In this document: piece by piece, positions 40,983-62,836 of the stretch
Numbering within the stretch: the stretch's first letter is position 1
How the letters are laid out: every line of letters begins with the position of its first letter
NCBI GenBank assembly: GCA_905233555.1
Contig: CAJODF010000001.1
Span: 84,232 to 148,231, forward strand
Length of the DNA stretch: 64,000 nucleotides
Source of the DNA: an uncultured Prevotella sp.
GTDB lineage: Bacteria; Bacteroidota; Bacteroidia; Bacteroidales; Bacteroidaceae
Reading direction: 5' to 3'
The notes under the pieces: model-generated
What the model saw: the letters and a program-made list of their open reading frames with translations, nothing else
What the model was told of the DNA's origin: nothing
The model's database searches: none
Translations under genes and position numbers: made by a program

Positions 40983-42125
40983 TTAATCTTCCTCTTCTGG
41001 TTGTACTCTAATTAGTCTCTCTATAAAATCATCGGCCTCAGCCTTGTTGAGACACAGAGGCGGCAACAGACGCAAGATGTTTTGTCCGGCACAACCCGTA
41101 AAGCAGTGCTCGTGCTTGATAAGCGGCTTGCGTACCATCTTGTGTGGCATATCCAACTCAATACCAATCATTAGTCCGCGACCGCGCACCTCCTTAATAT
41201 GCGAACTGCCGATGCCGCGGATGCCGTCCATCAAGTAGTCGCCTATCACGCGGGCATTCTCTACCAGTCCCTCATCTTCGAACACGTCGAGCACAGCCAG
41301 TGCTGCCGCACAGGCGAGGTGATTGCCGCCGAAAGTAGTGCCTAATTGTCCATAGACAGGCTCAAACTCTGGCGATATCAGTACAGCACCCATCGGGAAG
41401 CCGTTGGCGATGCCCTTGGCTACGGTGATAATATCAGGTTTGATGCCTAACCACTGGTGGGCAAAGAACTTACCGCTTCGTCCATAGCCACACTGAATCT
41501 CGTCGCATATCAGGACCGCACCATAGCGCTTGCAGGCATAAGCCAGTCCTTGGGCAAATTCCGGTGTGGCCATCTGAATGCCGCCCACGCCTTGGATGCA
41601 CTCTAAGATAACGGCTGCCACGCCGCCTTTTGACAACTCGCGTACCCACGGTTCCAAGTCATTCATTGGCAGGAAGCGTGTGTGATGGTTATCGTTGATG
41701 GGGGCGATGATCTTGGGATTGTTCGTCACCTCGACAGCCAGACTTGTCCGTCCGTGGAAGGCCTTCTCACAACTCAGCACACGGGTATTACCTGTCTTAA
41801 ACGATGCCAACTTCAGTGCATTTTCATTGGCCTCGGCACCAGAGTTAATGAGGAACAATTGGTAGTCGTCGTAGCCAGATATCTTGCCTAATCGCTCTGC
41901 CAGTTGCACCTGCAGTTTGTTAATGACCGAGTTAGAATAGAATCCAATCTTGCTGAGTTGCTCTGTTACCTTTTCTATATAGTGTGGGTGCGAGTGTCCG
42001 ATGCTAATGACAGCATGACCACCATATAGGTCAAGGTATTCCTGACCCTTGTCATCCCACACTTTGCAGCCCTTACCCTTGACTATATTCACGTCGAAGA
42101 GCGGATAAACATCGAATAGTTTCAT
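40983..42125 (-). CDS. argD: Acetylornithine (or succinylornithine) aminotransferase
   Basis: Class-III PLP aminotransferase: FLINSGAEANENALKLA, AVILECIQGVGGIQ, LICDEIQCGYGRSGKFFAHQWLGIKPDIITVAKGIANGFPMGA. Confidence 0.93.
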   Translation of the reverse strand: MKLFDVYPLFDVNIVKGKGCKVWDDKGQEYLDLYGGHAVISIGHSHPHYIEKVTEQLSKIGFYSNSVINKLQVQLAERLGKISGYDDYQLFLINSGAEANENALKLASFKTGNTRVLSCEKAFHGRTSLAVEVTNNPKIIAPINDNHHTRFLPMNDLEPWVRELSKGGVAAVILECIQGVGGIQMATPEFAQGLAYACKRYGAVLICDEIQCGYGRSGKFFAHQWLGIKPDIITVAKGIANGFPMGAVLISPEFEPVYGQLGTTFGGNHLACAAALAVLDVFEDEGLVENARVIGDYLMDGIRGIGSSHIKEVRGRGLMIGIELDMPHKMVRKPLIKHEHCFTGCAGQNILRLLPPLCLNKAEADDFIERLIRVQPEEED

Positions 42126-42148: not shown

Positions 42149-42162
42149 TGCAAAGTTACTGC
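42149..42162 (-). promoter_or_regulatory. Separate promoter for argD and downstream genes
   Basis: Minus strand TAACTTTGCAGCC just upstream of argD with an upstream TTTG at about 18-nt spacing. Confidence 0.6.
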
Positions 42163-42207
42163 AAATATCCGACAAACTGCAACTTTCTTTCGTCTTTTTG
42201 CATAAAA

Positions 42208-42245
42208 ATGTCAATTGCACGCGATAAAACGCATGCAATTGACAT
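42208..42245 (-). terminator. Terminator closing the FAS1/SusCD cassette
   Basis: ATGTCAATTGCA ... TGCAATTGACAT perfect 12-bp arms plus 3 inner bp, followed on the minus strand by TTTTTA. Confidence 0.82.
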
Positions 42246-42298
42246 ATTCTTGCGTTACCGCCTCTAATATTAGCAGTAACATGTTTTGAAAAACAGAA

Positions 42299-44110
42299 TT
42301 ACATACCTATCTGTCCGTTCCACTGGAGATACCAGTTACGCTGGTCGCTGAGGTCTTTCTTGATCTCACTGCGCATGGCTCCGCTGTTCTCCTTGCCGCG
42401 ACGGCTATAGACCTGACGGGACAGGAACTCTCCAGGATTGGGCTGGCGGAAAGCAAAGCGCATGATATCGTAGAAGCGGGTTCCTTCGAAGGCCAGTTCA
42501 AGACCACACTCGTTGAGTAGCAGACTATCGACAAAAGCCGTCTGGATGGGTTTCTTCTCATCTTCTGTCATCAGAGAGTCATCGGGTAACTGGTAGAATT
42601 CATTCATTGGCGTCCAGCCAGAGCCACGGCTATGGATACCTATTGTATTGTGATTATCCTCAGTGCGATTGGTTGCCAACTCATTGGCGGTGAAGATGCC
42701 ATATCGCTCTTCCGGGAAATCGAGACGGCTGATCCATATAGAATCGCTTTCTGAGCAATAAGGATAGACAGACTCTCTTAAGACTGCGTTATTAAGACCT
42801 TGTGACAACATCTGGAATGCAGCACGTGGGAATCCGGCGCCATTGAGGGCTTCAGCCAGTCGTAGATAGACCATCTGGCGACGATAAATATGGACGTTCT
42901 GAGACCAATATTTATCATTGTATACAGTCTCAATGCGTTCGCCAGACAGACGATCGGTCGTGAAACCTTCATCATAATATTGGTACAGTCGTAAATCACC
43001 AGACATATGATCAGGAAGATCTGCAGGAGCATAAAAGAAAGTGGTTCCGTTTGTTCCTACACAACAGTGTGTCTGACTGCTTGACAAATCGAACATATAG
43101 GTCGAAGGCACGATACTGACACGATAGTCATTATCCTGCTGTGAGTTGAAGAGGTTGCGCAGTTCGCTGTAATGTCCTTCGGCAGGGATGGAGTCGCCAG
43201 CAATCATGGTGATAATCTCAGCATTGGCTCCTACTGTCTCTGATGTGAGACTTCCTGAACTATAACTACGGAATGAGTTCCAGTCTCCAGAACCCGGTAC
43301 CCATGTATAAAGGCTTAGGCCAATAGGATAGGCAGAGTTGTTTCCGTTACGCTCGTTGATATACTTGTAGTAGCGTGTGGCAGCTTCACGGTAGGTTGCA
43401 GTATTCTTTGTAACACTTGCTAACCACAGATTTAAGTCTCCGAGTACAATGTTGAGAGGGAAGTAGAACAAAAGTGAGGCATTACCGCGGATGGTTCCGT
43501 AACGAGGGTATTCGTTGGCCCAGCGGTCAGTCAGTGGTGCAAGATCGTTGATAAAGTACTCGCATACTGCCTGAAGATCATATTTCGGATAATTCTTCTC
43601 GGCCTCTACCTTAGTGAGTATCGGTTCTGTAACGAACGGGATGCTACCGTAATTGAGCACAAGTTGGAGATAGGTCCAAGCACGAATGCTTTTAACGGCT
43701 GCATACTCTCTCATGAAAATATAATCATTACGGTTGTTCTTCAAAGCCGTATCAACCTTTGCGATAAAATAGTTACAATTGTTGATGATAGCATAATAGT
43801 CGCGCGGCTGGTTGTAGCGATTGTCATCACCGATATTAAAAAAGGCCATGTCGCGTAGGTCGCTGTTGGCAGCATTGGTAATATCGACAAGATCACCACG
43901 AACCTCTCCGAGAAGGATGGTGCGGTCGGCAATGGACTGCAATTTGTTGAGGATACCGATGACGCTGTAAATGGAGTCTGTCGCATTATCCAATTTGTTA
44001 TTCTCAGTGAATACGACATGCTCTGATTGCTGGTCGAAGAAATCGGAGCAAGAGGCCATGCCGCAGATGGCGCAGGTCGCAAAAACGAGTTTATATATCT
44101 TAGTAATCAT
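42299..44110 (-). CDS. SusD/RagB-family lipoprotein (second pair of cassette)
   Basis: MASCSDFFDQQSEHVVFTENNKLDNATDSIYSVIGIL; C-terminal NECGLELAFEGTRFYDIMRFAFRQ. Confidence 0.9.
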   Translation of the reverse strand: MITKIYKLVFATCAICGMASCSDFFDQQSEHVVFTENNKLDNATDSIYSVIGILNKLQSIADRTILLGEVRGDLVDITNAANSDLRDMAFFNIGDDNRYNQPRDYYAIINNCNYFIAKVDTALKNNRNDYIFMREYAAVKSIRAWTYLQLVLNYGSIPFVTEPILTKVEAEKNYPKYDLQAVCEYFINDLAPLTDRWANEYPRYGTIRGNASLLFYFPLNIVLGDLNLWLASVTKNTATYREAATRYYKYINERNGNNSAYPIGLSLYTWVPGSGDWNSFRSYSSGSLTSETVGANAEIITMIAGDSIPAEGHYSELRNLFNSQQDNDYRVSIVPSTYMFDLSSSQTHCCVGTNGTTFFYAPADLPDHMSGDLRLYQYYDEGFTTDRLSGERIETVYNDKYWSQNVHIYRRQMVYLRLAEALNGAGFPRAAFQMLSQGLNNAVLRESVYPYCSESDSIWISRLDFPEERYGIFTANELATNRTEDNHNTIGIHSRGSGWTPMNEFYQLPDDSLMTEDEKKPIQTAFVDSLLLNECGLELAFEGTRFYDIMRFAFRQPNPGEFLSRQVYSRRGKENSGAMRSEIKKDLSDQRNWYLQWNGQIGM

Positions 44111-44139
44111 AATTCTTAATTCTTAATTCTAATTATTAA

Positions 44140-47100
44140 TTACAGTTTAATCTTGATTCCAGCCACGATAGAACGGCTTTGACTGAGTTGTCCCACATCG
44201 ATACCCTGACCGATGACGTTAGAGGTCATGGTGAACTCAGGATCGCTGCCTAGATACTTTGTCAGAGTGAAGACGTTATTTGCTTGAACCCAGAATTGCA
44301 GGCCCTGCAGATACTCGTTCTGGAGTGGTAGGTCATAACTCAGAGTGATGCTCTTCAGACGCAGATAACTACCGTCTTCGATCCAACGGTCGCTAAAGCG
44401 GGAGTTGCCCATAGGATCTTGGAATGTAATCTGCGGAATGTCGGTCTGCTGACCTTCCACCTGCCAACGGCGAATAAGTGCCGTTGTCTGGTTCATGAAA
44501 CGGTTGCCGCCTTCCAGTTGAGCGCGTTGATAATTATAGACATCATTACCTAATGAGTAATTGAAACGGAGATCCAGTTTCAAGTGCTTATAGGTGATGG
44601 CCGTGAAGATATTACCATAGATGTCGGGGTTCGGATCGCCGATAAACGTACGGTCTGCCTCGGTAATCTGATGGTCACCGTTGAGGTCGGCAAAATGGAT
44701 GTCACCTGCCTTGAAATAGGTACGGTCAATACCGTTCTCTCCGAGGATATAGAGACCAGCAGCCTCTGCCTCTGCTGTTGTGGAGAAGACGCCGAGTGAC
44801 TTGTAGCCATAGAAGAGGTTGGCAGCCTGACCTACCTGTGTACGGATGGTTGCTCCATAGACATCATTGTCAACGTAGGCCTGACCTTCTGGCAATTGGG
44901 TGATTTCGTTCTTGTAGTGACCGATGCTACCGCCTACTTCCCATTGCAGGTTCTTGAGAGAGATTACCTTGAGTGCTGCCGAAACATCGAAACCTTGGTT
45001 CTTCAGTTTACCGTCGTTCGTCCAGTTCTCGCTCAGACCGCTAAGGAATCCCAATGACTGGCGGGTAAGCAGGTTATCTGTGTTGGAGCGGAAATAGTTC
45101 GCACTCAGATTCAAGCGGTTGTTGAAGAGACTCGTCTCTAAGCCGACATTGAAGCGGCGTGTGGTCTCCCACTGGATTTTCGAGTTACCGATACCATCAA
45201 AGACCAGACCAGAGATGGTGTTCAGGAATTGTGAAGCACTGAAGTAACTGCGAGCGGCATAGTAGTCGATATCATCGTTGCCACTCACATCAAAGCCGGC
45301 TGTCAGGCGCAGGTAATTGATCGCTTTAACCTTAGCCATCCAAGATTCGTTGCTGATAACCCATGATGCCTGCACGCCAGGGAATATACCCCAGGCAGCG
45401 TCGAACATGCGGAAGTTACCACCGTCTCGACCGAAGCGTGAGGAACCTTCAACTGTCACATTGGCCTGTAAGAAATAGCGGTTCTTGTAGTTGTATTCCC
45501 CTTGAGCATACCAAGCCAGAGAATTCCAGTTGTCACTGGTACCAAAGTCATTAGTGTTTGTAAGGCTCGACTTCATGAATGGTTGTTTATCGTTACCTGT
45601 ATTGTATCCTAACAGAGAAGTCATCGAATATGACTCCCAGTTGATACGTGCACCGCCGAAGAGGTGGATGAAGTGGGCATTGTAACGGTTACTCCAGTCG
45701 AGGCGGGTGTCGCTCATCAAAGAGTTCTGCTTGGAGGCTAATGAACGGACCTCATTCTCACGGTATGCACCGATACTGCCGACATAATAACTCGGCGTAC
45801 CATTGACAGGGATATAGTAAATCTCGTTGGTGTTGACAAGATTATAACTGAAATGCTCGGAGAGCGTCAGGTTACGGCTTAATCTGAATGAGGGCGTAAC
45901 CGTCAAGTTCAGCATAGAGTTCTCCAAACGGTTCTTGTTCTCGGCCTCACTATATTCATTGATGGCTGCAGGGTTTCCTAACTGCCAGTTGTAATTCTTA
46001 TAGTTGGCCAGTGCCTCAGAAAGATATGACTCTTCTTCAATATCGTAGTGCGTTTTAGACAATTCTCCGCGACCGTAACTATAGGCGCTGAGGAATGGGC
46101 TCTTAGCATATGCCAGAAATCCAGGAGCCGTCGGCGTGCCTTCATCATAACTGGCAGGTGCGCCATCATTACGAATGTCACGGGTGATATTGCCAAAGGA
46201 TGCGTCGAAACGAATACTGAATCGTTCGCTAAGTGAGATATCCGTGTTGAAACGGATATTCAGACGATCCATGTCATTGTACCTTAGTGTACTCTGCTGG
46301 TTGACGTAGCCGACCGAAAGACTATAGTTAGCCACGGCATCACCACCTTCGACATTGATACCATAGTTCTGTGTCATGGCCGTATGATACACAAAGTCTT
46401 TCCAGTCTGTCTCCTGATGGTACTGTTTGTAATAATAGTATTCAGGATCCTCATTGAGGAACTTAAAGGTACGGTTACGGGTGTTTGTGGTCTTCAGCAG
46501 CTCCGAAGCATAACTGCGGTACTGTCCTGCATCCATCATAGAGAGGAATTTCGGTTTAAGGACAACTCCTGCTGAGACATTGGCCGTGATTCGGGTGGCC
46601 ATTGACTTGTTACGCTTAGTCTGGATGAGAATGACACCGTTTGCACCTTTGGCACCATAGAGAGCCGTTCCATTACGCATGACGGTTACCTTCTCAATAT
46701 CCGACGGATTGATGGTTGAAAGGATGTCGTTGAAGAAACCTTCGTGGAGCATGGTGCGGCCATACTGTTGGTCGATGATGACACCATCGACTACAACTAA
46801 TGGTTGGGCATTGACATTCAGGGAGTTTAGTCCCTGTACGAACATCACATTACCGACACCGGGGGTACCGTTACGGGTTATACTATAGACCTGAGCACCC
46901 AGATGCTTCTGCACCTCGTCCTTAATATTAACGGAGTTGGTGTAAGCAAAATCCTTGGTGCTGTAGTCGCCACGTACATTAATCTGTTTGTCGTATTCTG
47001 CCGCGAAGGTCACCGGATAAAGTTTTACCTCGTACTGTTCCTCCTGGCTCTGCAGTCCTAGACGTACAGGATTGAAGTCAGGCATATTGATATAGACTGA

Positions 47101-47388
47101 CGTGGTAAACGTGGGAACATCCAACTTGTAGAAGCCGTTTTCCTCGGTGAGCGTGCTATAGCCTTCCACATCGTCAGCGCTAACGATTGTACCTGCGACA
47201 GGCTGGCCTGTGGTAGCGTTCAATACACGTCCGCGGATTGTTCTCGTGGGATACTGCTTATGCTTGGGCTTCAACTTGCGGGCAAGGGTCTCAATGAAGT
47301 CCTCAGACTCTGTGTCCTCGTCCTGTGCTACGATGCTTAAGGGAAAAGCCATCAGCAGTGTAAGTCCTAATATAATGTATTTTTTCAT
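44140..47388 (-). CDS. SusC/RagA-family TonB-linked outer-membrane protein, divergent (second pair of cassette)
   Basis: CarboxypepD-like RTIRGRVLNATTGQPVAGTIVSADDVEGY; QPLVVVDGVIIDQQYG; ALYGAKGANGVILIQTKRN; C-terminal YLRLKSITLSYDLP. Confidence 0.93.
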   Translation of the reverse strand: MKKYIILGLTLLMAFPLSIVAQDEDTESEDFIETLARKLKPKHKQYPTRTIRGRVLNATTGQPVAGTIVSADDVEGYSTLTEENGFYKLDVPTFTTSVYINMPDFNPVRLGLQSQEEQYEVKLYPVTFAAEYDKQINVRGDYSTKDFAYTNSVNIKDEVQKHLGAQVYSITRNGTPGVGNVMFVQGLNSLNVNAQPLVVVDGVIIDQQYGRTMLHEGFFNDILSTINPSDIEKVTVMRNGTALYGAKGANGVILIQTKRNKSMATRITANVSAGVVLKPKFLSMMDAGQYRSYASELLKTTNTRNRTFKFLNEDPEYYYYKQYHQETDWKDFVYHTAMTQNYGINVEGGDAVANYSLSVGYVNQQSTLRYNDMDRLNIRFNTDISLSERFSIRFDASFGNITRDIRNDGAPASYDEGTPTAPGFLAYAKSPFLSAYSYGRGELSKTHYDIEEESYLSEALANYKNYNWQLGNPAAINEYSEAENKNRLENSMLNLTVTPSFRLSRNLTLSEHFSYNLVNTNEIYYIPVNGTPSYYVGSIGAYRENEVRSLASKQNSLMSDTRLDWSNRYNAHFIHLFGGARINWESYSMTSLLGYNTGNDKQPFMKSSLTNTNDFGTSDNWNSLAWYAQGEYNYKNRYFLQANVTVEGSSRFGRDGGNFRMFDAAWGIFPGVQASWVISNESWMAKVKAINYLRLTAGFDVSGNDDIDYYAARSYFSASQFLNTISGLVFDGIGNSKIQWETTRRFNVGLETSLFNNRLNLSANYFRSNTDNLLTRQSLGFLSGLSENWTNDGKLKNQGFDVSAALKVISLKNLQWEVGGSIGHYKNEITQLPEGQAYVDNDVYGATIRTQVGQAANLFYGYKSLGVFSTTAEAEAAGLYILGENGIDRTYFKAGDIHFADLNGDHQITEADRTFIGDPNPDIYGNIFTAITYKHLKLDLRFNYSLGNDVYNYQRAQLEGGNRFMNQTTALIRRWQVEGQQTDIPQITFQDPMGNSRFSDRWIEDGSYLRLKSITLSYDLPLQNEYLQGLQFWVQANNVFTLTKYLGSDPEFTMTSNVIGQGIDVGQLSQSRSIVAGIKIKL

Positions 47389-47420
47389 ATCCTTACAGTT
47401 CTTATATTCATACTATAACA

Positions 47421-49229
47421 TTATTTCTTCAACCAGTAGAAAATGTCGCCATCGCCATGAGGTTCAATGGTAAACCGTTCTTCATCAACAATAGCGATAC
47501 CATGAGGTACGAGCATGATACAGTCGATCATCATCGTTTTAGTAAATGTATCGGTCTCTTTTCTGCCTACATTGGTTGTTATGGTCAGCGTTACCTGTGG
47601 TTCAGCCTCTATCAGACCGTATGTACAGCAGGGGAACTTAAAGTCTTCTGCTAGCAGGAGATAGTTGACTTCGTCACGCGTTGTAGTAATGGAATCCCCA
47701 AAGACTACTGTTTCTGTCGTACCTTTCTGGTTATGGAAATTCATTTCGCAATGCAGCCTGGTTGGGAGACGCTGGGCCTCGGTAGCATTACTGTCATTGG
47801 CGAGCGCTGGAGCGGTGACGAGATAGATGTCATAACCAATGTTGGAAAGTACATCCTCAATATTGAAGGTCACAGAGTGTTGTAATCTACTGTTATTGGT
47901 GGCTTCTACGAACTCCACATACCCATCATCCCAGACCTTGCCGTAGAAGGGGTTGTTGTTCATGACGCGACGAGTAACAGGTATAATGGTTCCTACCTCT
48001 TCCTTCGTTTTCGAATCTTCGGTCTTACTTACCTCCTTGATACTGCCACGATTCTCGGCTTCAATGATAATCCACTGATAGAAGGTATTCAACTTGTTAA
48101 TGCGCCAGTTGTCAGTCTTCATCACCTGACCATTAGTACAAGGAACATTCTCCGTACCATTGAAGACACCGTTAGGTCCAAACGGTTTCTGTGTGTTGGT
48201 AGCAGAGATACCACCATATTGATAATAGTGAAGGTTGTTATTACCCCAACTATATCGGCGGCTAACGTATGTCCTTGCTGCATTTGTGGAAAGGGCGGAG
48301 TCTGTCAGGTGTGTATCTGTATTGAGCGTCCGACTAAATATCGTTCCTTCCATAATGGCAAGACGAGGAAGAGTATACACCATCGAATCACGGAACTTCA
48401 CCTGATCGTCGTAATTGAAATAAGGTTGATACTCGTCAAGCAACTCTTTCCATGCCGCATTCGTAGGTGCGACCATCCAATAAGTACTATCTTCTTCATT
48501 CAGTTCTGCATTGAGAAAATCGAAGAGATCGTTTCGCTGTACGAAGACAGAATCAAGATAGACGGTTTTTCCATCGACAATACCTCCAGGAATGCTTCGA
48601 CCGGGGATAAACTCATGGCGGTAGAAGTGATCGCTGTAGAAGAAATTCGTGACACTATCAAGATCAGCGTCCTTACGCAGATATTCGAAAATGTTAGGTG
48701 CGAAATCTGCTTTCCCGTCAATCGTGAAGAGAACACCATTGCTGTAGAGTTCGTTCTTAGTCAGAATAGTACTATTTCCAAATGTGCTGGTTGTCAGTTT
48801 GATTTTCTTACCATTCATCATTAGAAGCGAGTCGTTAGTGGTCTCGTAGATGGAGTGGTTATACATAGCAATGTGGTTATGTATAAACTCCTTGACGACA
48901 GTGTTGTCATTAATGTTCACCTTGCCCTTTTCAGCGTTGAAGGCAGCAATCAGTTCGTCGGCCTCTTGGGCTGAAAAATGTTCGTTGGTCGGGGCGAAGA
49001 CGGTGAACACTTGGCTGCTGGATAATGACTTGTCAAAACCGCAGCCTAGAATGACCTTAGCGAAATTGCTCAGGTTGCTGTTCTGCGTAATGCCCTCCCA
49101 GAGCGTATAATCTTTCATGTCTTTGCCCTTATCCTCAAAGTGGTCGTTCCACGTGTCGGAGCAGGCTGCGAAGGTAAGGACCGCCAATGCAAGTCCTATT
49201 ACCTTATTATATATATGTTTATTGCTCAT
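47421..49229 (-). CDS. FAS1/fasciclin-like lipoprotein with C-terminal beta-sandwich-like region
   Basis: Lipobox TFAACSDT; FAS1-like VFTVFAPTNEHFSAQEADELI and second degenerate TYWMVAPTNAAWKELLDEYQPYF. Confidence 0.82.
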   Translation of the reverse strand: MSNKHIYNKVIGLALAVLTFAACSDTWNDHFEDKGKDMKDYTLWEGITQNSNLSNFAKVILGCGFDKSLSSSQVFTVFAPTNEHFSAQEADELIAAFNAEKGKVNINDNTVVKEFIHNHIAMYNHSIYETTNDSLLMMNGKKIKLTTSTFGNSTILTKNELYSNGVLFTIDGKADFAPNIFEYLRKDADLDSVTNFFYSDHFYRHEFIPGRSIPGGIVDGKTVYLDSVFVQRNDLFDFLNAELNEEDSTYWMVAPTNAAWKELLDEYQPYFNYDDQVKFRDSMVYTLPRLAIMEGTIFSRTLNTDTHLTDSALSTNAARTYVSRRYSWGNNNLHYYQYGGISATNTQKPFGPNGVFNGTENVPCTNGQVMKTDNWRINKLNTFYQWIIIEAENRGSIKEVSKTEDSKTKEEVGTIIPVTRRVMNNNPFYGKVWDDGYVEFVEATNNSRLQHSVTFNIEDVLSNIGYDIYLVTAPALANDSNATEAQRLPTRLHCEMNFHNQKGTTETVVFGDSITTTRDEVNYLLLAEDFKFPCCTYGLIEAEPQVTLTITTNVGRKETDTFTKTMMIDCIMLVPHGIAIVDEERFTIEPHGDGDIFYWLKK

Positions 49230-49264
49230 AACTTTTCACTTTTCATTTTTCACTTATTACTTTC

Positions 49265-51358
49265 TTAGAGGTCGTCTTCCATTTCACCTTCACCGCCAGT
49301 GCCATAAACACTCTTTGGGACAAGTTCCAAGAAGTCGAGTGCGAACTCGTTGTTGTTTCCTTGCTTACCATCGGAGGCCACCCTAATTCTCATATAATGG
49401 TCTTTGGTAGAATCAAGAAATGTCTGGCTGATGATTTTGCGCATACCGATATTATAGACGCAATTCCATGCCCTTGAACCTGGCGACATTCCCGCTTCGC
49501 AGTAGATGGAGCGCGGATGAGTATAGACGCCGAGGTTCTTCATACTCTTGATATATTCGGCTTTATCTTCATCAGACAAGTTGTTATAAGTATTGATATC
49601 ACTGATAAAACTATCGCCGATGTAATAATCAGAGTCCATGTTTTTGGTCATATCCAAAGGAATTCCTTGTGGTATGCCATCTACATAGATTTGGGCGACA
49701 CCACGAGTGGTTTGGGATGTAAAGCCCAGACGTATCTGCCATTCACCGTCGAATGGTATCGGCGGCAGACGGAACGTGAAGTCATAGTCTCCATACAGAC
49801 AAAACTCATCCCACATATATATATCATAAATTGAACCGGGTCTTCTCCACTGGAATTTGCAGTTGGAGAATGATACACCGTCAAGATAACCATCGGGGAA
49901 ATACCAGTTGCGACCGTTCTTTTCATCGGTGCTACCAGCCTCAAATGGATTTCCTAAGATACGGAGACCATTTGTTATAAACTCTGGGAAGACAGTGTTG
50001 AAGTCCATGCGGATACGTTGGTTATGTACTTTGTCCTGAACATCCTTGCTAAAGGCTACGATGTCATCAACATAGAAGTAATGGCCGTTGAGTCCATCGT
50101 GTTTGTAATCGTCATCCATAGGTTCAATACGCTGTCCTGTGAAACTACAAGTTTCATCGTAGCGTCTGTTGATATAGCGATCACCTTTAATGCTTCCTCC
50201 CAGATATTTATCGACGGTCACCTTATCCACTTTGATCATCTTGTGGGGTAGGAGGGTGTAATGCCAGTCACAAGGATTGATTCGTGTCTCATCAATACCG
50301 ATGGCGCCATTAAAGTTGGCCTTGTTGGTAACTTCTTGGGGAGTCAAATCATCGGTACCGGCAGCAATCTTGTTCAGGATGTGGTACTGGACGAAACGGC
50401 GTAGGGGATTGACACTGTCCGTGAGGTTCTCAAAACTGTGGCCAGATGCATTCACGTCCTGAGGATAGACCTCGTCATAGATGGTGCAGGCCAGATTATA
50501 GAGGGCACGAAGGTCGCCCTTCGGAATATTGTATTTCGCCTCTAATAATGAGTCTGGCTCAATGAAGAACGTGTAACCATATTTCTTGGTATCAGGTGCT
50601 TCATACTTCTTTGCACCTACAGTTTGTTCATACTCACCTGATGCTCCGTAAAGCGGTACGTAATCCTTTGGATTATAGTCTTCATCTTCCACCAACATCA
50701 CATCATTGATGACATCTGTAGCCACTAAGGCTTTGTAGAATGTGCTGATTTTGGGGTTCTCTCGTAACATGTCTGAGATGTAACTGTTCGACTTCTCAAT
50801 GACTGCGTCGATGGGCTGCATGATACCATTCTCAACGGAGTCATCTTTCAGGTCGAATTTGATCTTGGCCAGTCCTTCAAGTACGATGACAGCGTTACTG
50901 TCGTTATCAAAGCCAGGTTCAGTTCCCAAATAGCGGTTCATCATATTCATTGATGGCATTTTATGTCCAATCATATCATATGTGGTGTACATATAGGAAA
51001 TCAGATGCGTACGGGCGATAGTGTCGCATTCGAGATCGCTTAACTGGGAAACGCTGCTGAGACCACGTTTTCTAAGGTATGCATCAATCGCATCGTTCGA
51101 TGGTGCAAAGCAGGTGTAATGGCCGTAGGTGGCAAGCAGATCCATTAGATGGGCTCTTTCCACAATCTCTGCGAACTCACTGTATTCTGGACGATCCGGA
51201 CTTTTCAGCCAGTCGCTCATCATCTCACCTGTAAAGGTGTAGAAATACTCGCTGTCAGGCTCGTCTGAGCAACTGGACAGCATCAGCATATTAAGGGGAG
51301 TCAATATGGCAAAGAATAGGGCTCCCACAATTCCTTTATATAGATTCTTTCGTCTCAT
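49265..51358 (-). CDS. FAS1/fasciclin-like lipoprotein with C-terminal beta-sandwich-like region
   Basis: Lipobox MLSSCSDE; FAS1-like YTCFAPSNDAIDAYLRKRGLSSVSQLSDLECDTIARTHLISYM; long C-terminal region (FDGEWQIRLGFTSQTTRGVAQIYVDGIPQG). Confidence 0.8.
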   Translation of the reverse strand: MRRKNLYKGIVGALFFAILTPLNMLMLSSCSDEPDSEYFYTFTGEMMSDWLKSPDRPEYSEFAEIVERAHLMDLLATYGHYTCFAPSNDAIDAYLRKRGLSSVSQLSDLECDTIARTHLISYMYTTYDMIGHKMPSMNMMNRYLGTEPGFDNDSNAVIVLEGLAKIKFDLKDDSVENGIMQPIDAVIEKSNSYISDMLRENPKISTFYKALVATDVINDVMLVEDEDYNPKDYVPLYGASGEYEQTVGAKKYEAPDTKKYGYTFFIEPDSLLEAKYNIPKGDLRALYNLACTIYDEVYPQDVNASGHSFENLTDSVNPLRRFVQYHILNKIAAGTDDLTPQEVTNKANFNGAIGIDETRINPCDWHYTLLPHKMIKVDKVTVDKYLGGSIKGDRYINRRYDETCSFTGQRIEPMDDDYKHDGLNGHYFYVDDIVAFSKDVQDKVHNQRIRMDFNTVFPEFITNGLRILGNPFEAGSTDEKNGRNWYFPDGYLDGVSFSNCKFQWRRPGSIYDIYMWDEFCLYGDYDFTFRLPPIPFDGEWQIRLGFTSQTTRGVAQIYVDGIPQGIPLDMTKNMDSDYYIGDSFISDINTYNNLSDEDKAEYIKSMKNLGVYTHPRSIYCEAGMSPGSRAWNCVYNIGMRKIISQTFLDSTKDHYMRIRVASDGKQGNNNEFALDFLELVPKSVYGTGGEGEMEDDL

Positions 51359-51366
51359 ATCAATCT

Positions 51367-53124
51367 TTATTTTTTAGTCGTCTTTTCGTAACTATCATTT
51401 TCGCCACTACCGAAAGCAGGATTCTGCACAAGATTGTGGTTGACCTTCATCTCGTCAAGATTATATGGCCAATAGATAGCATCCATCTTTGTCAGGTGGT
51501 TGCTAATCAGTCCTTCACCTGTTGTGGCTTTTGAAAGAGCAGCCGCTTTCAATACAGAAGTATTGCCTGTGCGCTGAGAGACACGCACAAGGTCGAACCA
51601 CCGTTTACCCTCGTACATCAGTTCGCGTTGGCGCTCCCTTAGAACTAATGTCTCCATGGATGCCTTGGAATTGTAGTCGGCTCTACGGAGTGTGTCCACA
51701 AGTTTGCTTTGGCAGAGAGCACGTTTGTTAACTGCGTTGATGAGGGTAAAGGCTCTGTCAAAAAGAGTCTTGTTATAATCGCTGGTTTCTTGATCGATAC
51801 CTTCACGAGCCATCTGTGTCAGGGCTTCAGCCTTGAGAAGCATGATGTCCGTCAGACGATAGATTACCCAGTTGGATCCATTCTCGTTCTGTGAGTATTT
51901 TGAATCATAGGTGACATCCATACTGGAACCATTGATTTCAATTTCTCTTGTCGTATATTTGTTGATGGATTGGTTGTTCACATTGCAGTCGAAATACATG
52001 CGGGCATCCACCTTCTTATTGCGGTCATCAAAAATCGTACGACCCGTCGTCTTTTCGATATCAGAGAAGATATGATCAGGGGGAGCCACCAAACCGATAG
52101 TAGCGTTGGAGTTGCCGTAGAAGGTATTGACAGCCGCATTGGCAGGCATACCGTTATTACTTGGATTGTCATCGAAGACTAATTGGAAGATAATCTCCTG
52201 GTTGGTCTTATCCACATAATTCCTATCACTGCCAAACAAGATACTGTAGGCATCACCATAATAACCTGTTGAAGTAGAGTTGCTTACCAGTGGGAAACCA
52301 TTGAAACGCGCATCATCATCTTCATTAGAGAAAGAACTGGAACGCTTCTGGCGGTTCTCCTCGGCAATGAGTTTTTTTGAATCAATAACCATGTCAGCAT
52401 AGCGGATACAGTTCTGATAGTCTTTCTTCCAAAGGTAGAGTTCGCAGAGCAGAGCATGAATGGCATCTTGTGTGATACGTCCTGTCTGGTACAATTCCTT
52501 CGTGACGGGGTAGCGTTTGACGGCAAAGTTCTGTACGCCTTCTAAGTCGTAGATCAATGAGTCAAGCACATCGTCAAACTTAGTGGCTGGCAGGTCCATC
52601 TTCTGGCTGTCGTCGATATACGCCTCTCTTGAGAAGGGTACGTCGCGGAAAGCACGAATCAGATAGAAGTAGCAGAGACTGCGGAGTGTAACCATCTCTG
52701 CGATGTTGGCTTGCAATTCGCTCTCTGTATAGGCGGGATCGTCGGCGGCTACATCAGGTGCATACTTGATGACCGTGTTACAACGGTTGATAACGGTATA
52801 GAATCCTCCCCAGTTGGTGTAGGAATTCTTGGCATCAATGTTCTCTTTCAGAATCTTCTCAAGGTTTCCGTCAGAGGATACGTTGTTACCAGGACCGATA
52901 TTGTCGCTGCGGAACTCGCCCCATACCATCATGCGTTTGATGACGGCTTCTGCTTGCATACCTGAGTAACAGCCTGCAATGACAGCATCTACATCGGCCT
53001 TTTCATTCCAGAATTGCTCCAGGATAATCTCATTCTGAGGCTTGATCTCTAAGAAATCTGTGCATGAAGAGAGGCCACAGATTGCGCTGAAGGCGCATAT
53101 TATATAATAATGTATTCTTTTCAT
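51367..53124 (-). CDS. SusD/RagB-family lipoprotein (first pair of cassette)
   Basis: GLSSCTDFLEIKPQNEIILEQFWNEKADVDAVIAGCYSGMQ; RQRELMYEGKRWFDLVRVSQR. Confidence 0.94.
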   Translation of the reverse strand: MKRIHYYIICAFSAICGLSSCTDFLEIKPQNEIILEQFWNEKADVDAVIAGCYSGMQAEAVIKRMMVWGEFRSDNIGPGNNVSSDGNLEKILKENIDAKNSYTNWGGFYTVINRCNTVIKYAPDVAADDPAYTESELQANIAEMVTLRSLCYFYLIRAFRDVPFSREAYIDDSQKMDLPATKFDDVLDSLIYDLEGVQNFAVKRYPVTKELYQTGRITQDAIHALLCELYLWKKDYQNCIRYADMVIDSKKLIAEENRQKRSSSFSNEDDDARFNGFPLVSNSTSTGYYGDAYSILFGSDRNYVDKTNQEIIFQLVFDDNPSNNGMPANAAVNTFYGNSNATIGLVAPPDHIFSDIEKTTGRTIFDDRNKKVDARMYFDCNVNNQSINKYTTREIEINGSSMDVTYDSKYSQNENGSNWVIYRLTDIMLLKAEALTQMAREGIDQETSDYNKTLFDRAFTLINAVNKRALCQSKLVDTLRRADYNSKASMETLVLRERQRELMYEGKRWFDLVRVSQRTGNTSVLKAAALSKATTGEGLISNHLTKMDAIYWPYNLDEMKVNHNLVQNPAFGSGENDSYEKTTKK

Positions 53125-53136
53125 ATTCGTATCTTT

Positions 53137-56100
53137 TTAGAACTCAACAGTGATACCTAATGTGTATGAACGGGAACGCGGTGTCTGGGCGCTGTCGATA
53201 GCGGGAGAGTAACCACCGCTTGAGATGTCCGGGTCAACACCGGAATACTTCGTGATAACAAACGGGTTGTTGGCACTCAAATACAGACTGATGCGGTTGA
53301 CACCAAGTGCCTGTGCGTATTTTCTGCGGATGTTATAGTTCAATTGTGCATAACCCATACGCAGATAAGAACCATCTTCCACAAAGCGATCGCTGATAAG
53401 CGTGTTGTAGTTGGAGTTGCTTCCGTACATAGCACGTGGAATAGATGTGACATCGCCTTCCTTACGCCAGCGATAGTTCACGGCCTGACTCTGGTTGTCG
53501 TTGCCAATCATAGCTTCGGCGTGCAGACGGGCCCTGTTAATAATCTTATTACCAAAGCGGTATGTGAACTGGGTACTCAGACGCCAGTCTCCATATGTGA
53601 AGGAGAAACCAAAGCCACCTGTCAACTTAGGCAGTGAAGAGCCTAGATAGACGATATCGAGTGCATTGATCTGACCGTCATGGTTGATATCCTCATAGAT
53701 GGCATCACCACCGTTGAAACGGTAGTTTCGGCCAGTGGCATCGTTGGTGTAGTTGAACATCATGCGGACGGGATCACCTTTACCGTCAACGATGACGCTC
53801 CCGTCGGCAGCCAGAGCCACAGGAGCCGTCTTCCCTTCTGCGAGGAACTGGGCGCGCTCTTCTGGCGTCATGTTCTTAAAGGTGCTGTAGTTATACTGAT
53901 AAACACCCTTGTAGCGGAATCCATAGATAGCGCCTAACGGGTTGTGCAACTGTACACGCTGCAGGGTCTCGTCGTTCGAGAAACCATAAACGGTATTGTA
54001 ATTGTCCAGTGTCAGATCGTCCAATTCCAGCAATTCATTGCGGTTGTTACCGAAGTTGGCGTTTACATCTACCCAGAACTTCTTGCCGATGGTAATGACA
54101 CGGTTGCTGTTGATGTGGAACTCCCAACCGGTGTTCCTCATCTTACCTAGGTTCTTATAGGCCACATTCTCGTATCCCGTGTTAGAGGGAATACGGTAGT
54201 TGGATAACAGCATATCGGTGGTTGTCTGTGAGTAACCCTCGATGGTCACGGTCAGACGGTCATTGAAGAAACCTAAGTCGATACCGCCATTCCAACTCTC
54301 GGTGATTTGCCATTTCATGTCAGTCAGGCGGATATTGTTTGGCTTCATGGCCTGCATATCAATGTACCTGTCGGTAGAACCATACTTCGAGGTGTAGAGA
54401 TAATCCTGACCAGGTTGTTGACCCGAACGGCCCCAACTGGGACGGATGGCGAACATTGACAACCACTTGTGGGTAGGCTCCATCCAAGGCTCGTCGCTAA
54501 TGATCCACTTCAAAGAGAGTGAGGGGAAGTAACCCCAGCGGCTACTTGGACCGAATTTCGTTGTACCGTCAGCACGCAGAGAACCGTCGATGATATAGCG
54601 TCCTTTGTAAGCGTAGTGAGCGGATGCTGTGAAGTACATGGAGCGATGCTGGCTGTAGTTAGAGCTCAGGTTGGTAATCATTCCACCGCCCTGCGTCGTG
54701 GTGATACCTGTAGGAACACCTTTTTTATCTTCCGACTGGCTGGTGGAAGAACCACTGTTCAATTCAAAACGTCCCAGCATCATGAAGGAGTGATCCTTGT
54801 TCTTGAAGGCAGGAATCAGCGTCAAGGTCTGTTTGGTGTTGAAAGATACGCTCTTTGAGGAACTGTCAGAGGTCGTGTTGACACCCTGATCCCAAGAAAC
54901 TGTCTTCAATTCCTGTGGATAATATCTGTTTGAATAGCCGTTGTTGATATTCAAATAGACCTGACCACGCCAGTTCAACTGCCAGTGGTCGTCGTCCATA
55001 CCGAGCAGTTGGTACTGAATAATCAATTCAGGCTGCATGTCGTAGGTGCTCTGCTGGTTTTTTGCCAGATGTGCACTGGCTACGGGGTTTACGTAGGTCT
55101 TTTGGTCGTTGTTGAAGACCGAACTACCGCTCTGCAGCATCGTATAATAAGAAGAGGTGTTTTCACCCGTCACAGGATTCTGCTCGTAGATGCTCATGTT
55201 TGGCATTTTCTTCATGGCGATGTCGAGCAGACCGTCAGAGTTACGGTCGTTCTTAGTATAAGTCATGGCGAAGTTGGTGCTGACGCGGATGCGTTCACTG
55301 ACATTATAGTCGAGGGCCACACGGGTGGAGAAACGCTGTAACTTCTGTTCAATCATCGTACCTGTTTCGTGGTCGAAACCGGCACCGATACGGAAGAGGG
55401 CTTTTTCACCACCACCCTGTACGGTAACATAGTGGTTCTGACGGAGACCCCATTGGGTGACAGCATCGCGCCAGTCTGTATTGTTGTTATACTGCTCGTA
55501 TTCCGAGAACGACGGGTCGTAGTTCAGTTCAGGAATGTCTGCGGCAGCATCGCTCTGCTCTGGGTTGAAGTACGACTCTTTCAGAAGCATCGTGTAATCG
55601 TCACCATTCAGGAGTTCATATCCCTTTGGCTGATAGGTGCCTGTCAGTTTCAGTGAGTACGAGAGTCTTGGCTTGCCTCGTACACCACGCTTAGTGGTCA
55701 ACTCAATGACACCGTTACCGCCTTGTGAACCGTAGATGGCCGTAGCTGCAGCATCTTTAAGTACGCGGATATCGGAGATGTCTTCAGGGTTGATGTTCAA
55801 CAGTTCGGCAAACTTCTCGTTGTTAGCCGAGTTGAGGTCAAAGTTGTTAAGATCTACCTGACGCACATTTCCGTCCACAACGATCAGCGGGTTGGAATTG
55901 GTGAGAGTAGAGAGTGATGAGGCACCACGCAGACGCATGGTAGAACCAGAACCCAGGTCACCTGAGTTACCGATGATGTCAAGACCGGCGATACGGCCCG
56001 TCAGAGCCTCATCAATAGTGGTGTAGGCCATACCTTCCACTTCCTTCATTGAGAAGTTCTGTGTTGCGTTGGCCACCTCTCGTTGCGGAATAGGCAGGTT

Positions 56101-56460
56101 GTTACCACCGACACGTCTTTGTGACTTAATGGTCACAGGGGCTATCGTGGTGTTATCGGTCATGACAATCTTGTAGTTTGTCTTGTTGATGGCCTGTGTG
56201 ACGGTCTTCATACCTACATAACTGAAACGGATCTTGTCCTTCTGGTTCCTGACCTTCATCGTGAAGTTACCATTCAGGTCGGTGACAGCAGATTCGATGA
56301 TACGGCCATTGCCGTCGATCTCGCAGACAGTGGCACCCATCAGGGGCCCCATCTCATCGCTCACGTTACCGTGAACGGAGGTGATTGCCTCCTGTGCACT
56401 GATGATTGTGACTGCCATCAATGCTATTATAATAGTGATATATCTTTTAAAAGTAATCAT
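53137..56460 (-). CDS. SusC/RagA-family TonB-linked outer-membrane protein (first pair of cassette)
   Basis: VHGNVSDEMGPLMGATVCEIDGNG; MRLRGASSLSTLTNSNPLIVVDGNVRQ; AIYGSQGGNGVIELTTKRG. Confidence 0.96.
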   Translation of the reverse strand: MITFKRYITIIIALMAVTIISAQEAITSVHGNVSDEMGPLMGATVCEIDGNGRIIESAVTDLNGNFTMKVRNQKDKIRFSYVGMKTVTQAINKTNYKIVMTDNTTIAPVTIKSQRRVGGNNLPIPQREVANATQNFSMKEVEGMAYTTIDEALTGRIAGLDIIGNSGDLGSGSTMRLRGASSLSTLTNSNPLIVVDGNVRQVDLNNFDLNSANNEKFAELLNINPEDISDIRVLKDAAATAIYGSQGGNGVIELTTKRGVRGKPRLSYSLKLTGTYQPKGYELLNGDDYTMLLKESYFNPEQSDAAADIPELNYDPSFSEYEQYNNNTDWRDAVTQWGLRQNHYVTVQGGGEKALFRIGAGFDHETGTMIEQKLQRFSTRVALDYNVSERIRVSTNFAMTYTKNDRNSDGLLDIAMKKMPNMSIYEQNPVTGENTSSYYTMLQSGSSVFNNDQKTYVNPVASAHLAKNQQSTYDMQPELIIQYQLLGMDDDHWQLNWRGQVYLNINNGYSNRYYPQELKTVSWDQGVNTTSDSSSKSVSFNTKQTLTLIPAFKNKDHSFMMLGRFELNSGSSTSQSEDKKGVPTGITTTQGGGMITNLSSNYSQHRSMYFTASAHYAYKGRYIIDGSLRADGTTKFGPSSRWGYFPSLSLKWIISDEPWMEPTHKWLSMFAIRPSWGRSGQQPGQDYLYTSKYGSTDRYIDMQAMKPNNIRLTDMKWQITESWNGGIDLGFFNDRLTVTIEGYSQTTTDMLLSNYRIPSNTGYENVAYKNLGKMRNTGWEFHINSNRVITIGKKFWVDVNANFGNNRNELLELDDLTLDNYNTVYGFSNDETLQRVQLHNPLGAIYGFRYKGVYQYNYSTFKNMTPEERAQFLAEGKTAPVALAADGSVIVDGKGDPVRMMFNYTNDATGRNYRFNGGDAIYEDINHDGQINALDIVYLGSSLPKLTGGFGFSFTYGDWRLSTQFTYRFGNKIINRARLHAEAMIGNDNQSQAVNYRWRKEGDVTSIPRAMYGSNSNYNTLISDRFVEDGSYLRMGYAQLNYNIRRKYAQALGVNRISLYLSANNPFVITKYSGVDPDISSGGYSPAIDSAQTPRSRSYTLGITVEF

Positions 56461-56488
56461 AATTTCTAATTCTTTTTCTAATTTCTAA

Positions 56489-59140
56489 TTACTTTCTCCT
56501 TACTTTATTAAGTTTTTCCCTCCAAGGTGTCATCTCTTCAGCGAGAAGGACGCCGTCTATCTGATGAACGACAGCATCGGATGCCATGTAGGTTGTCGTG
56601 GGATTTTCGTTGGTATCAACATTAAACCAGTACTCACGACAAATGCGATTGTAGAGTCCGTTAGTCTTCACGACATGGCGCTTGTTGCCAAGCACATCCT
56701 GAACCCACATCTGTCCGCCTTCATGATTGGCGATAAGAGGATAGAAACGGCTTGTCTCGGCATTACGTCTCATCGTTTCATAGGAGTTCTCATACTTGCC
56801 TTCTTCTGGAGCCATGTTGATGGCAATAGAATGGTCTTGTATGTGGTAACGGATGAAGTCAACAATGATGTCCCTAATCATATTTTGGGCTTCATCATCG
56901 CTGTCTCCGAGAGAGTCGGTCTGAGCCTCATAGTCATCCCATGTGGGCAACAAACCGTCATCAATTAGTTTTCTGATGGACTCGTTGGTCGGAACATAGA
57001 TAGTATAATTATAGTTGTCAAGCAGACGCAGGTTCTTGTTGCCTTGTTTGCTCAGACCGGCACTATACTTGTTCCTTAATTTAGAGTCTAAAAGGTCAGC
57101 GCCTTCCAAAAGTTCCAAAAATTCTGAGAATTCTGGTCTTTCCTTCAGGGTCATATAAACGGACTTTTCGGTCGCTAATGGCGCTTGCTCGTCTAACAAA
57201 TAAGATTTACCATTGACTTTCGTGTAAATATCTTTGTCGTTAACGGGCAATACTTTATTATTGTGATCTGTCTGCCAGCCACCTGCAAGAGCCAATCGGC
57301 CGTCTGAAGCCTTGGTGACGCGGAGGAGAGTGCCTCCCTTTGACTTGTAGAACTCATGGCCGTCCTCAATGTCACCAACGATGATCAACTGATTCATCAG
57401 TCTATACAGACAATCAACGACGATGTTTGTTGTCACAGTTTCCTGAGCTACATCGCCCAAGGTGATAGTACCGTCATCTTCAATCGTACATCTGTAGCGA
57501 CGGGCCTGAACTTTCTGATTGTCACCCTTCTTTTCATCGTAATAAAATTCAAGGACGGTTGGAGCGGTAATGTTCTCTGTGTCATAGGTGGATATATCAA
57601 GATACTGCAACATGGCATTGTTCGTAGGCAGAATCAGGCTATACCTCGAGTCCATAGAAAGCAGATAGGGCAGGAAGTTTAACTTCAAAGCCGGTGAAGA
57701 GGTGTCGCTCGAGGGTAAAAGTGAGGCTGCTGAGATGGCCCAGTAGATGACATTCATGACTGTGGGGTGGGCTGTCGCAGGAGAAACCACTGAAGAAAAC
57801 TCCGCTGGAGTGAAAACGCGGTTGGTCATATAGACCACGCCGTTACAACCCATAAAGCATGAATCGACATCTGCCATCTTAACACCCATCTCTTCCTTAG
57901 CATCGTTCAGAATCTTGTCGAACTTAGTGGGGACGACCTCCGTGAACACAGGTAGCATATGGATGTTGAGAAGGGTTGATAGCGTCTTCACGGGGAGACT
58001 GTCTATGACACCATATTCTTCCTGCAGTTCCTTGCCTTCCTGGTTCCACCATCTCTCCAATGCTTCGTTTGTGGGAACCAACATGGCACCGGCATCGTAG
58101 TTCAAACTATTGTTTGTTGTAGCATTGATGTATTGGTTCCATCCTGGGTCGAATCTCAATCTGGCATTTACAGCCTCACCTGCCGGCGTATTGTCGTTTG
58201 TACCATTGGCAGATGCGTTGCTGTAATAGCGAACGGTATAGACGGAATCCTGATTGTTATAGAGTCGGTTGTATTCCCTGGTGCCCTCTGCATCAAAATA
58301 AGGCGCACAGAAACGGTCGAGCAACTGTGACCAGTGTGATAGGTCTGGATGCTGACGGATAATCTCTGCCATGTTGGGAGAAGATTCAACAACACCGTTC
58401 ACCTTCTGGATATAGCCGTTTTTGCAGGTGATGTCACGCTCTATGACTTTCTTGCCGTTTACCCATGCTTCGTTGATGTCGTTAGCCTGATGGTTCGTCA
58501 AAATGTCAAGGTCTGATTCTGTAATCTTGTTCGTCTTCATAAAGGCGGGTAAGAAATGAATCATCGGAGCGGCTGTGGCATCCTTCAATACGGGAATACT
58601 TCTGCCTTTGTCCCTGAACTTGGCCCATACCTCAGTATTCGGCATCTGGCTGGGACTCAGAATCTGCACGGAGTCGTAAATACTGGTTGCCGTCTCGCGG
58701 CGCATCGTACGACCCTCCTCCGGATGGTTGTCCTCGCCTTGAGGCCTACCATTCGACATCAACTCAATCAGGTAGGCATTGTTGATCATTGAGTTGTTAA
58801 GCAGAAGTTTCTTCTGCGACATAGATAGTTGTTCGTAACGGTTTACACCCCATGAGTTTTTGGTAAACCATTGCTTGAAAGCCGAGTCGTTGGCTGCAAA
58901 CAGGGTCTTCGAACCAGTATGGCTGAGAACCTCGTGTTGTCCCAAGTCGTCAATCAACCTTAGCATCGTGGTGTAATTGCCATCTTCCTCCAGACGCTCA
59001 TAGATTGAGTTTCCTAACCATTCAGGCTGTCCTGTAAGAACGTCGTCTTTACAGCCTTGAAAGGTTGAGGCACCCATCAGCAGTCCGCAGGCGGCAATGA
59101 GCCACTGACGCCATTGTTTTGCGATTTGTCTCTGTTCCAT
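56489..59140 (-). CDS. Multi-domain FAS1/fasciclin-like lipoprotein, first gene of cassette
   Basis: Four FAS1 H1-like motifs: KTLFAANDSAFKQWF, AMLVPTNEALERWWN, YSLILPTNNAMLQYLD, YTIYVPTNESIRKLID; lipobox TFQGCKDD. Confidence 0.85.
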   Translation of the reverse strand: MEQRQIAKQWRQWLIAACGLLMGASTFQGCKDDVLTGQPEWLGNSIYERLEEDGNYTTMLRLIDDLGQHEVLSHTGSKTLFAANDSAFKQWFTKNSWGVNRYEQLSMSQKKLLLNNSMINNAYLIELMSNGRPQGEDNHPEEGRTMRRETATSIYDSVQILSPSQMPNTEVWAKFRDKGRSIPVLKDATAAPMIHFLPAFMKTNKITESDLDILTNHQANDINEAWVNGKKVIERDITCKNGYIQKVNGVVESSPNMAEIIRQHPDLSHWSQLLDRFCAPYFDAEGTREYNRLYNNQDSVYTVRYYSNASANGTNDNTPAGEAVNARLRFDPGWNQYINATTNNSLNYDAGAMLVPTNEALERWWNQEGKELQEEYGVIDSLPVKTLSTLLNIHMLPVFTEVVPTKFDKILNDAKEEMGVKMADVDSCFMGCNGVVYMTNRVFTPAEFSSVVSPATAHPTVMNVIYWAISAASLLPSSDTSSPALKLNFLPYLLSMDSRYSLILPTNNAMLQYLDISTYDTENITAPTVLEFYYDEKKGDNQKVQARRYRCTIEDDGTITLGDVAQETVTTNIVVDCLYRLMNQLIIVGDIEDGHEFYKSKGGTLLRVTKASDGRLALAGGWQTDHNNKVLPVNDKDIYTKVNGKSYLLDEQAPLATEKSVYMTLKERPEFSEFLELLEGADLLDSKLRNKYSAGLSKQGNKNLRLLDNYNYTIYVPTNESIRKLIDDGLLPTWDDYEAQTDSLGDSDDEAQNMIRDIIVDFIRYHIQDHSIAINMAPEEGKYENSYETMRRNAETSRFYPLIANHEGGQMWVQDVLGNKRHVVKTNGLYNRICREYWFNVDTNENPTTTYMASDAVVHQIDGVLLAEEMTPWREKLNKVRRK

Positions 59141-59210
59141 AATTTTTTTGTTACTTTATTTTTGTTGGTTATTGTTAGTTGCGTTATGGCATTTTGATTC
59201 GTTGCGGATG

Positions 59211-59218
59211 CAAATTTA
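59211..59218 (-). promoter_or_regulatory. -7 box of the FAS1/SusCD cassette
   Basis: Minus strand TAAATTTGCATCC about 70 nt upstream of ATG 59140; the next genes follow with short gaps of 8-35 nt. Confidence 0.5.
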
Positions 59219-59358
59219 GTTTATTTTTCCTAATAAGAAATCTTGTTTTATAACAAATTTTATAATAGATACATTTTGCAAAGTTTATGTAACATCAAAA
59301 AATGTCTTTTTCACATAAAAAACCTGAAATAAGTGTAATGATGACCCGCAAAATAAAA

Positions 59359-59380
59359 CCTCGGCTCAAAAGAGCCAAGG
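59359..59380 (-). terminator. Terminator downstream of argC
   Basis: Minus strand CCTTGGCTC-TTTT-GAGCCGAGG followed by TTTTATTTT. Confidence 0.85.
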
Positions 59381-59410: not shown

Positions 59411-59476
59411 GCGCACTTCAGTGCACCTAGGAGCGCACTCTAGTTCTTTAGTAGGCGCACTGCTCAGAAGGCTGAA
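59411..59476. repeat. 22-bp phased GCGCACT repeat at the argC 3' end
   Basis: GCGCACT at exactly 59411, 59433, 59455. Confidence 0.7.
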
Positions 59477-61628: not shown

Positions 61629-61648
61629 ATCTATTCTATTTTTATTCT

Positions 61649-62263: not shown

Positions 62264-62296
62264 TATTATTATGCATTATGCATTATTAATTATGAA

Positions 62297-62773: not shown

Positions 62774-62795
62774 GTTGGTATATTTATACAAAGTC

Positions 62796-62825
62796 GGCTG
62801 CAAAATTACATAATATTTTGCAGCC
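62796..62825 (-). promoter_or_regulatory. Inverted repeat overlapping the argR promoter
   Basis: GGCTGCAAAAT-TACATAAT-ATTTTGCAGCC, perfect 11-bp arms; minus strand reads TTGGCTGC...TAATTTTGCAGCC, so it spans the -33 to -7 region. Confidence 0.75.
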
Positions 62826-62836
62826 AACCAAATATT

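Follow-up and report, generated by a model that had tools for sequence, protein, structure and literature searches.

In classical Sus-like polysaccharide utilization loci (PULs), SusC/SusD pairs and surface lipoproteins, among them the surface glycan-binding protein (SGBP) SGBP-B, are encoded in one operon. The rhamnogalacturonan-I (RG-I) PUL of Bacteroides thetaiotaomicron (BT4145–BT4183, core BT4164–BT4170) is controlled by a hybrid two-component system (HTCS) and induced on RG-I (PMC8002723, PMC3243724); its core comprises a SusC–SusD pair (BT4164/4165), BT4166, the RG-I-binding SGBP BT4167, a second SusC–SusD pair (BT4168/4169), and the outer-membrane lyase BT4170 (PMC8002723). Proteins with FAS1 (fasciclin) domains are mentioned together with SusCD just in passing in the open-access papers found (e.g., PMC4891872, PMC10199937), one case being a cellulose/hemicellulose-like PUL of Gramella portivictoriae whose published map places a FAS1 gene with SusD and glycoside hydrolase (GH) genes (PMC4891872, Fig. 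6). Here, we describe a seven-gene cassette of three FAS1 proteins and two SusC–SusD pairs in a 64,000-nucleotide stretch of DNA (hereafter the window) from an uncultured Prevotella sp. (GenBank assembly GCA_905233555.1, contig CAJODF010000001.1). We put at roughly two in three the probability that this cassette is a member of an ancient, ordered glycan uptake module of Bacteroidia in which FAS1 proteins act as SGBPs and whose ancestral ligand was RG-I.

The cassette occupies the minus strand (42299–59140) in the order FasA–SusC1–SusD1–FasB–FasC–SusC2–SusD2, the one-strand, seven-gene order by which we define the FAS1-double-SusCD module. From FasA to SusD2, the open reading frame coordinates leave intergenic gaps of 28, 12, 8, 35, 32, and 29 nt, exactly as given in a preliminary description of this DNA, and the promoter-like site upstream and terminator downstream that it had pointed out were both located: a Bacteroidetes-type −7 motif, TAAATTTG, lies at 59218–59211, and a hairpin follows SusD2 (Table 1). 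Adjacent susC and susD genes, the hallmark pair of Sus-like systems, occur twice. Both SusC proteins score above the TIGR04056 cut-off of 368 bits, and SusD_RagB (PF07980) and SusD-like_3 (PF14322) match SusD1 and SusD2 alike.

That the other three proteins belong to the FAS1 family, as had also been proposed, was borne out by matches of Fasciclin (PF02469) to FasA, FasB, and FasC and by Foldseek searches with AlphaFold models of FasA and FasB, which retrieved TGFBIp, periostin, and fasciclin I. The FasA model (predicted local distance difference test score, pLDDT, of 78) aligns along the four FAS1 domains of TGFBIp/periostin with a best E of 9e-16. In the FasB model (pLDDT 84), the FAS1 domains resemble those of fasciclin/TGFBIp, and the C-terminal region resembles carbohydrate-binding modules of family CBM35 and 7ehg MiXBM. 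Neither model gave a convincing match to a catalytic fold, and no hydrolase was found in the seven proteins with Pfam/NCBIfam or in the two models; the idea that the C-terminal parts of these FAS1 proteins conceal a hydrolase was rejected on the CBM35-like matches of the FasB model. The lipobox cysteines of the cassette lipoproteins are followed by K-D-D (FasA), S-D-E, S-D, or T-D. Acidic residues after the lipobox cysteine fit surface export in Bacteroidetes, and judging from these residues the cassette lipoproteins would be located at the cell surface.

Like classical Sus-like PULs, the cassette joins SusC/SusD pairs and putative surface lipoproteins in a predicted operon; unlike them, it contains two different SusCD pairs in a fixed seven-gene order and, in agreement with the preliminary description, three FAS1 lipoproteins in the place of SGBPs. 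The Gramella portivictoriae PUL, as far as its published map goes, differs in carrying GH5, GH9, and GH26 (PMC4891872). By published layout, on which our comparison is based, the order SusC–SusD–x–SGBP–SusC–SusD–lyase of BT4164–BT4170 equals cassette positions 2 to 7 plus a lyase, and the window cassette shares the arrangement of two SusCD pairs flanking two surface proteins (C-D-x-x-C-D). FasC occupies the place of BT4167, a likeness of position, and would correspond to a protein already described as RG-I-binding if the sequences bear this out. Unlike the RG-I PUL, the window copy is without enzymes and regulators and lies inside an arginine cluster. Given the equal order published for the RG-I PUL (PMC8002723), the earlier label "undescribed" is doubtful and applies at most to the recognition of the module and its FAS1 proteins. 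A xyloglucan-type PUL in the window (22229–32220) likewise pairs SusCD with surface binding proteins on one strand; it differs in its separate location, its SGBP-B XBD protein, TIG-domain protein, and GH5, and its lack of FAS1.

Conservation of the seven-gene order

Besides the window, 114 fetched loci have exactly the same seven-gene order. They come from rumen Prevotella and other genera of its family, and also from further families of the order and further orders of the class. An architecture repeated in so many loci is not a product of chance. The exceptions were mostly cassettes cut by contig ends, with a doubled FasB, or with FasB absent (L182, L199); the FasB duplication in L049 and L081 is in tandem. 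The 78 loci retrieved in a scan with FasB, for the most part from ruminant metagenome-assembled genomes, belong to records of Prevotella, Prevotellaceae, or Bacteroidaceae and have conserved order. Rumen Prevotella genomes contain several paralogous cassette types each, and up to four types, all identically ordered, were seen in a single genome; Xylanibacter brevis ATCC 19188 has a type I cassette (L098). With a FasA profile, matches were obtained in 141 of 201 family genomes, in 43 of the 246 from the order as a whole, and, in a phylum sample of 297, in 6 genomes outside the order. The FasA profile alone was used to pick 11 loci in other orders and in further genera of the family, and all of them show the full order. 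So do the fetched loci of what is probably Bacteroides, a genus of the same family in which 18 of 96 species match. The order holds down to protein identities of 13–40%.

The seven proteins co-evolve as one unit. Across 24 cassettes, their pairwise distances correlate with r of 0.80–0.96, part of which reflects the shared descent of the genomes, an effect that paralogous types within one genus reduce but do not remove. These correlations support the preliminary interpretation insofar as the two SusCD pairs are retained together with the FAS1 proteins. In the tree of the same cassettes, SusC2 and SusD2 form clades apart from SusC1 and SusD1 (support 1.0 and 0.99), the SusC1/SusD1 grouping being weakly supported. 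Between close relatives, SusC1 and SusC2 have changed least, with median identities of 72–73% versus 53–60% for the other five proteins.

Enzyme genes beside the cassette in relatives

Genes for pectin-degrading enzymes adjoin the cassette in several relatives. A gene for a rhamnogalacturonan lyase of polysaccharide lyase (PL) family PL11 directly follows SusD2 on the same strand in L237 (39 nt) and L251 (7 nt), and a PL4 gene, also on that strand, overlaps the end of SusD2 in L210; these positions parallel that of the BT4170 lyase. Pectate-lyase genes, likewise on the cassette strand, stand directly before FasA in L173 and L203. GH51 fusions lie 16–29 nt upstream of FasA on the same strand in Prevotella L120 and L122 (type I), and GH35, GH2, GH5, GH51, and GH78 genes come directly after SusD2 on the same strand in various relatives; several of the enzyme or regulator neighbors share the strand of the cassette and are separated from it by less than 60 nt. 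The wider neighborhoods contain GH28, GH105-type (GH88 family), GH106, PL22, and GDSL/CE12-like genes, of which CE12 (carbohydrate esterase) and several others were named by sequence reading only. RG-I enzymes (PL4/9/11, GH28, GH105, or GH106) are found in the loci L210, L236–L239, L222, L225, and L251. In G530, an L-rhamnose operon (RhaT, kinase, isomerase-like, aldolase-dehydrogenase) adjoins the cassette, as it does by sequence reading in G748.

Among the 10 far loci with both flanks read, pectin, RG-I, or rhamnose genes lie no more than 14 kb away in 5 or 6. If 2–5% of positions are assumed to lie that near pectin-type genes, the chance of 5 such loci in 10 is P 7e-7 to 6e-5. Moreover, HTCS (Y_Y_Y) genes occur at most 5 kb from at least 4 of the 22 order-level cassettes versus 0.75 expected (P 0.007). 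The "no enzymes" of the preliminary description is thus correct for the window locus and fails for the system, whose relatives adjoin rhamnogalacturonan lyases, pectate lyase, GH51/GH35/GH2/GH5/GH28/GH78/GH106, or HTCS genes.

Other kinds of neighbor were also seen. Most type I cassettes are immediately preceded, on their own strand, by genes for multi-jelly-roll proteins of ~1200 aa with features of type IX secretion system (T9SS) cargo (e.g., L126:2175-6062, L123:12741-16436, and L131:2217-5753; no Pfam match in the two scanned). Such a protein is likely an eighth partner that is missing in the window; in a search of the window genome for a copy of the T9SS CBM4_9-like neighbor, only weak partial matches were obtained. 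In L102, the gene 17 nt after SusD2 encodes a secreted protein that is metallopeptidase-like (MHEMLHG) and shares the C-terminal modules of the multi-jelly-roll proteins. A conserved metallopeptidase partner upstream was rejected, as MHEMLHG occurs only in L102 and the clustering of the upstream genes was due to shared C-terminal jelly-roll and T9SS-type modules. CotH proteins neighbor the cassettes L120 and L151 as well, and the window encodes a CotH-kinase/LTD/chitobiase-C-like protein at 19690–22131.

Insertion between argC and argD

The cassette splits an arginine-biosynthesis cluster, which the preliminary description had missed: argR-GNAT-argG-argC lie upstream and argD downstream (Table 1). 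It is set off from argC and argD by terminator-like hairpins and Bacteroidetes-type promoter motifs, argD having the promoter-like motif TAACTTTG upstream at 42158–42151. Also downstream of the cassette, besides argD, are proC and genes for an XRE-cupin regulator, an AMP-binding enzyme, a proB-like amino-acid kinase, a proA-like member of the aldehyde-dehydrogenase family, and a carbamoyltransferase.

Table 1 Features of the cassette and its flanks in the window
Feature	Position	Strand	Description and basis
FasA	56489..59140	-	883 aa lipoprotein, four FAS1 domains; Pfam PF02469 and AlphaFold/Foldseek
SusC1	53137..56460	-	SusC/RagA TonB-dependent transporter, 1107 aa; TIGR04056 675 bits, Plug and CarbopepD_reg_2
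SusD1	51367..53124	-	Lipoprotein, 585 aa; PF07980 7e-24, PF14322
FasB	49265..51358	-	697 aa FAS1 lipoprotein, C-terminal CBM35-like beta-sandwich; PF02469 and AlphaFold/Foldseek
FasC	47421..49229	-	602 aa FAS1 lipoprotein; PF02469, profile-profile match to FasB and FasA
SusC2	44140..47388	-	SusC/RagA TonB-dependent transporter, 1082 aa; TIGR04056 534 bits; lineage distinct from SusC1
SusD2	42299..44110	-	Lipoprotein, 603 aa; PF07980 1.6e-7, PF14322
Promoter-like site	59211..59257	-	Bacteroidetes-type (TTTG ... TAAATTTG), upstream of FasA; sequence read directly
Terminator-like hairpin	42208..42245	-	Intrinsic type, 16-bp stem, downstream of SusD2
Terminator-like hairpin	59350..59380	-	After argC, between argC and cassette
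argR, GNAT, argG, argC	59464..62827	-	Left half of split arginine cluster; Pfam
argD	40983..42125	-	Right half of split arginine cluster; Pfam/TIGR00707

The argC–argD junction (42126–59463 in the window) is uninterrupted in many relatives: in L165, L166, L167, L170, and L171, the two genes are spaced by a few to ~60 nt. In others (L160–L164), it is occupied by differing inserts, 11.5, 6.2, 7.3, and 5 kb long, several of which begin with a kelch plus an AraC helix-turn-helix gene. The junction is therefore a recurrent insertion site and the cassette one of its cargoes. In the close relative L168, a T9SS-type CBM4_9-like gene separates the cassette from argC, and in L117, L118, and L133, arg genes flank the cassette on both sides with one side inverted. 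The window cassette has no digestive-enzyme genes alongside because it sits inside the arginine-synthesis cluster. It is thus left as an orphan at a hot spot for insertion and probably relies on enzymes that other parts of the genome encode or that other rumen microbes release.

Proposed ligand and mechanism of the module

We propose that the three surface FAS1 lipoproteins serve as SGBPs in place of the usual ones and would hold a branched, acidic plant glycan, ancestrally RG-I pectin. Glycan fragments would be handed to two different SusC–SusD pedal-bin transporters, which would import the oligosaccharides with TonB energy; in many lineages, lyases, hydrolases, or an HTCS regulator adjoin the module. 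The window copy would presumably form a complex and take a substrate of this kind. A more far-reaching proposal, possible but tentative, is that the seven proteins make up one fixed surface complex or "double utilisome", in which the FAS1 proteins bridge two non-interchangeable SusCD transporters, one pair for backbone and the other for side-chain fragments, and which would be conserved across Bacteroidia and unrecognized as a family.

Several observations weigh against RG-I as the ligand or FAS1 proteins as the SGBPs concerned. Neither PMC8002723 nor PMC3243724 speaks of FAS1 domains in BT4166/4167. There is no carbohydrate-active enzyme (CAZyme), HTCS, or extracytoplasmic function (ECF) regulator gene within ~10 kb downstream of the window cassette or upstream to the contig end, ~4 kb beyond argC, so that the linked CAZymes and linked HTCS/SusR/ECF regulator of Sus-like loci are absent; PL4/9/11, GH28, GH105, and GH106 are likewise absent from the cassette and its neighbors. 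Next to the nearest relatives of the window cassette are T9SS-type, CBM4_9-like proteins, not RG-I lyases, and some far relatives have no pectin genes nearby. The GH43 family was not enriched near the order-level cassettes and was ruled out as a defining enzyme. The neighbors of Prevotella cassettes (GH51 fusions, GH35, GH43, GH10, and GH2) are at least as suggestive of arabinan, galactan, xylan, or arabinogalactan as of the RG-I backbone. Finally, in G455 (L206, L218), an N-glycan cluster with a PNGase F gene and GH92/GH38-like genes lies by the cassette, which suggests N-glycans as an alternative ligand there. Apart from this one relative, nothing speaks for the undegraded or host-derived ligand envisaged in the preliminary description, and we set that idea aside.

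The Prevotella neighbors raise the alternative that the importer is of the same type and that its type I ligand is not RG-I but arabinan, type-II arabinogalactan/arabinogalactan protein, arabinoxylan, or another plant glycan. Type I loci with GH51 fusions (L120, L122), GH35 (L139), GH10/GH43/SASA (L124), and GH51 (L142), a type II cassette with GH115, and a type III cassette with a GH95-type gene agree with it. We consider it unlikely, though worth serious attention: it is RG-I enzymes with which the module is associated most deeply and most widely, arabinan and galactan occur as side chains of RG-I itself, and few type I loci were Pfam-scanned past the adjacent genes. FAS1 domains are adhesion domains in eukaryotes, and FAS1 proteins are usually taken as adhesins. 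The cassette might accordingly be pictured as a surface adhesion system whose FAS1 proteins fasten the cell onto plant particles or other cells, with SusCD as anchors or sensors instead of importers, a picture that the enzyme-free window copy would suit and that resembles the interpretation given to a FAS1 gene of a mussel symbiont (PMC10199937). It is highly improbable: the two TonB-dependent transporters are intact and, when close relatives are compared, better conserved than the other five proteins, and the genes neighboring the cassette in relatives are catabolic PUL genes and HTCS. Import of peptides or glycopeptides from a protein or glycoprotein ligand, as by RagAB, would fit the metallopeptidase-like gene directly after the L102 cassette and the PNGase F gene near that of G455; such neighbors are exceptional and carbohydrate enzymes dominate, and we regard a peptide ligand as most unlikely.

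An ancestral RG-I importer with FAS1 proteins as SGBPs remains our preferred reading, and the overall interpretation of the preliminary description stands in part. FAS1 proteins emerge as standing parts of Sus-like loci in Bacteroidia. With the operon so defined, RG-I-type pectin becomes a hypothetical substrate for many loci with fasciclin-domain proteins and SusCD, to which rumen Prevotella contributes a large share, and the question of why some PULs retain two different SusCD pairs side by side becomes testable.

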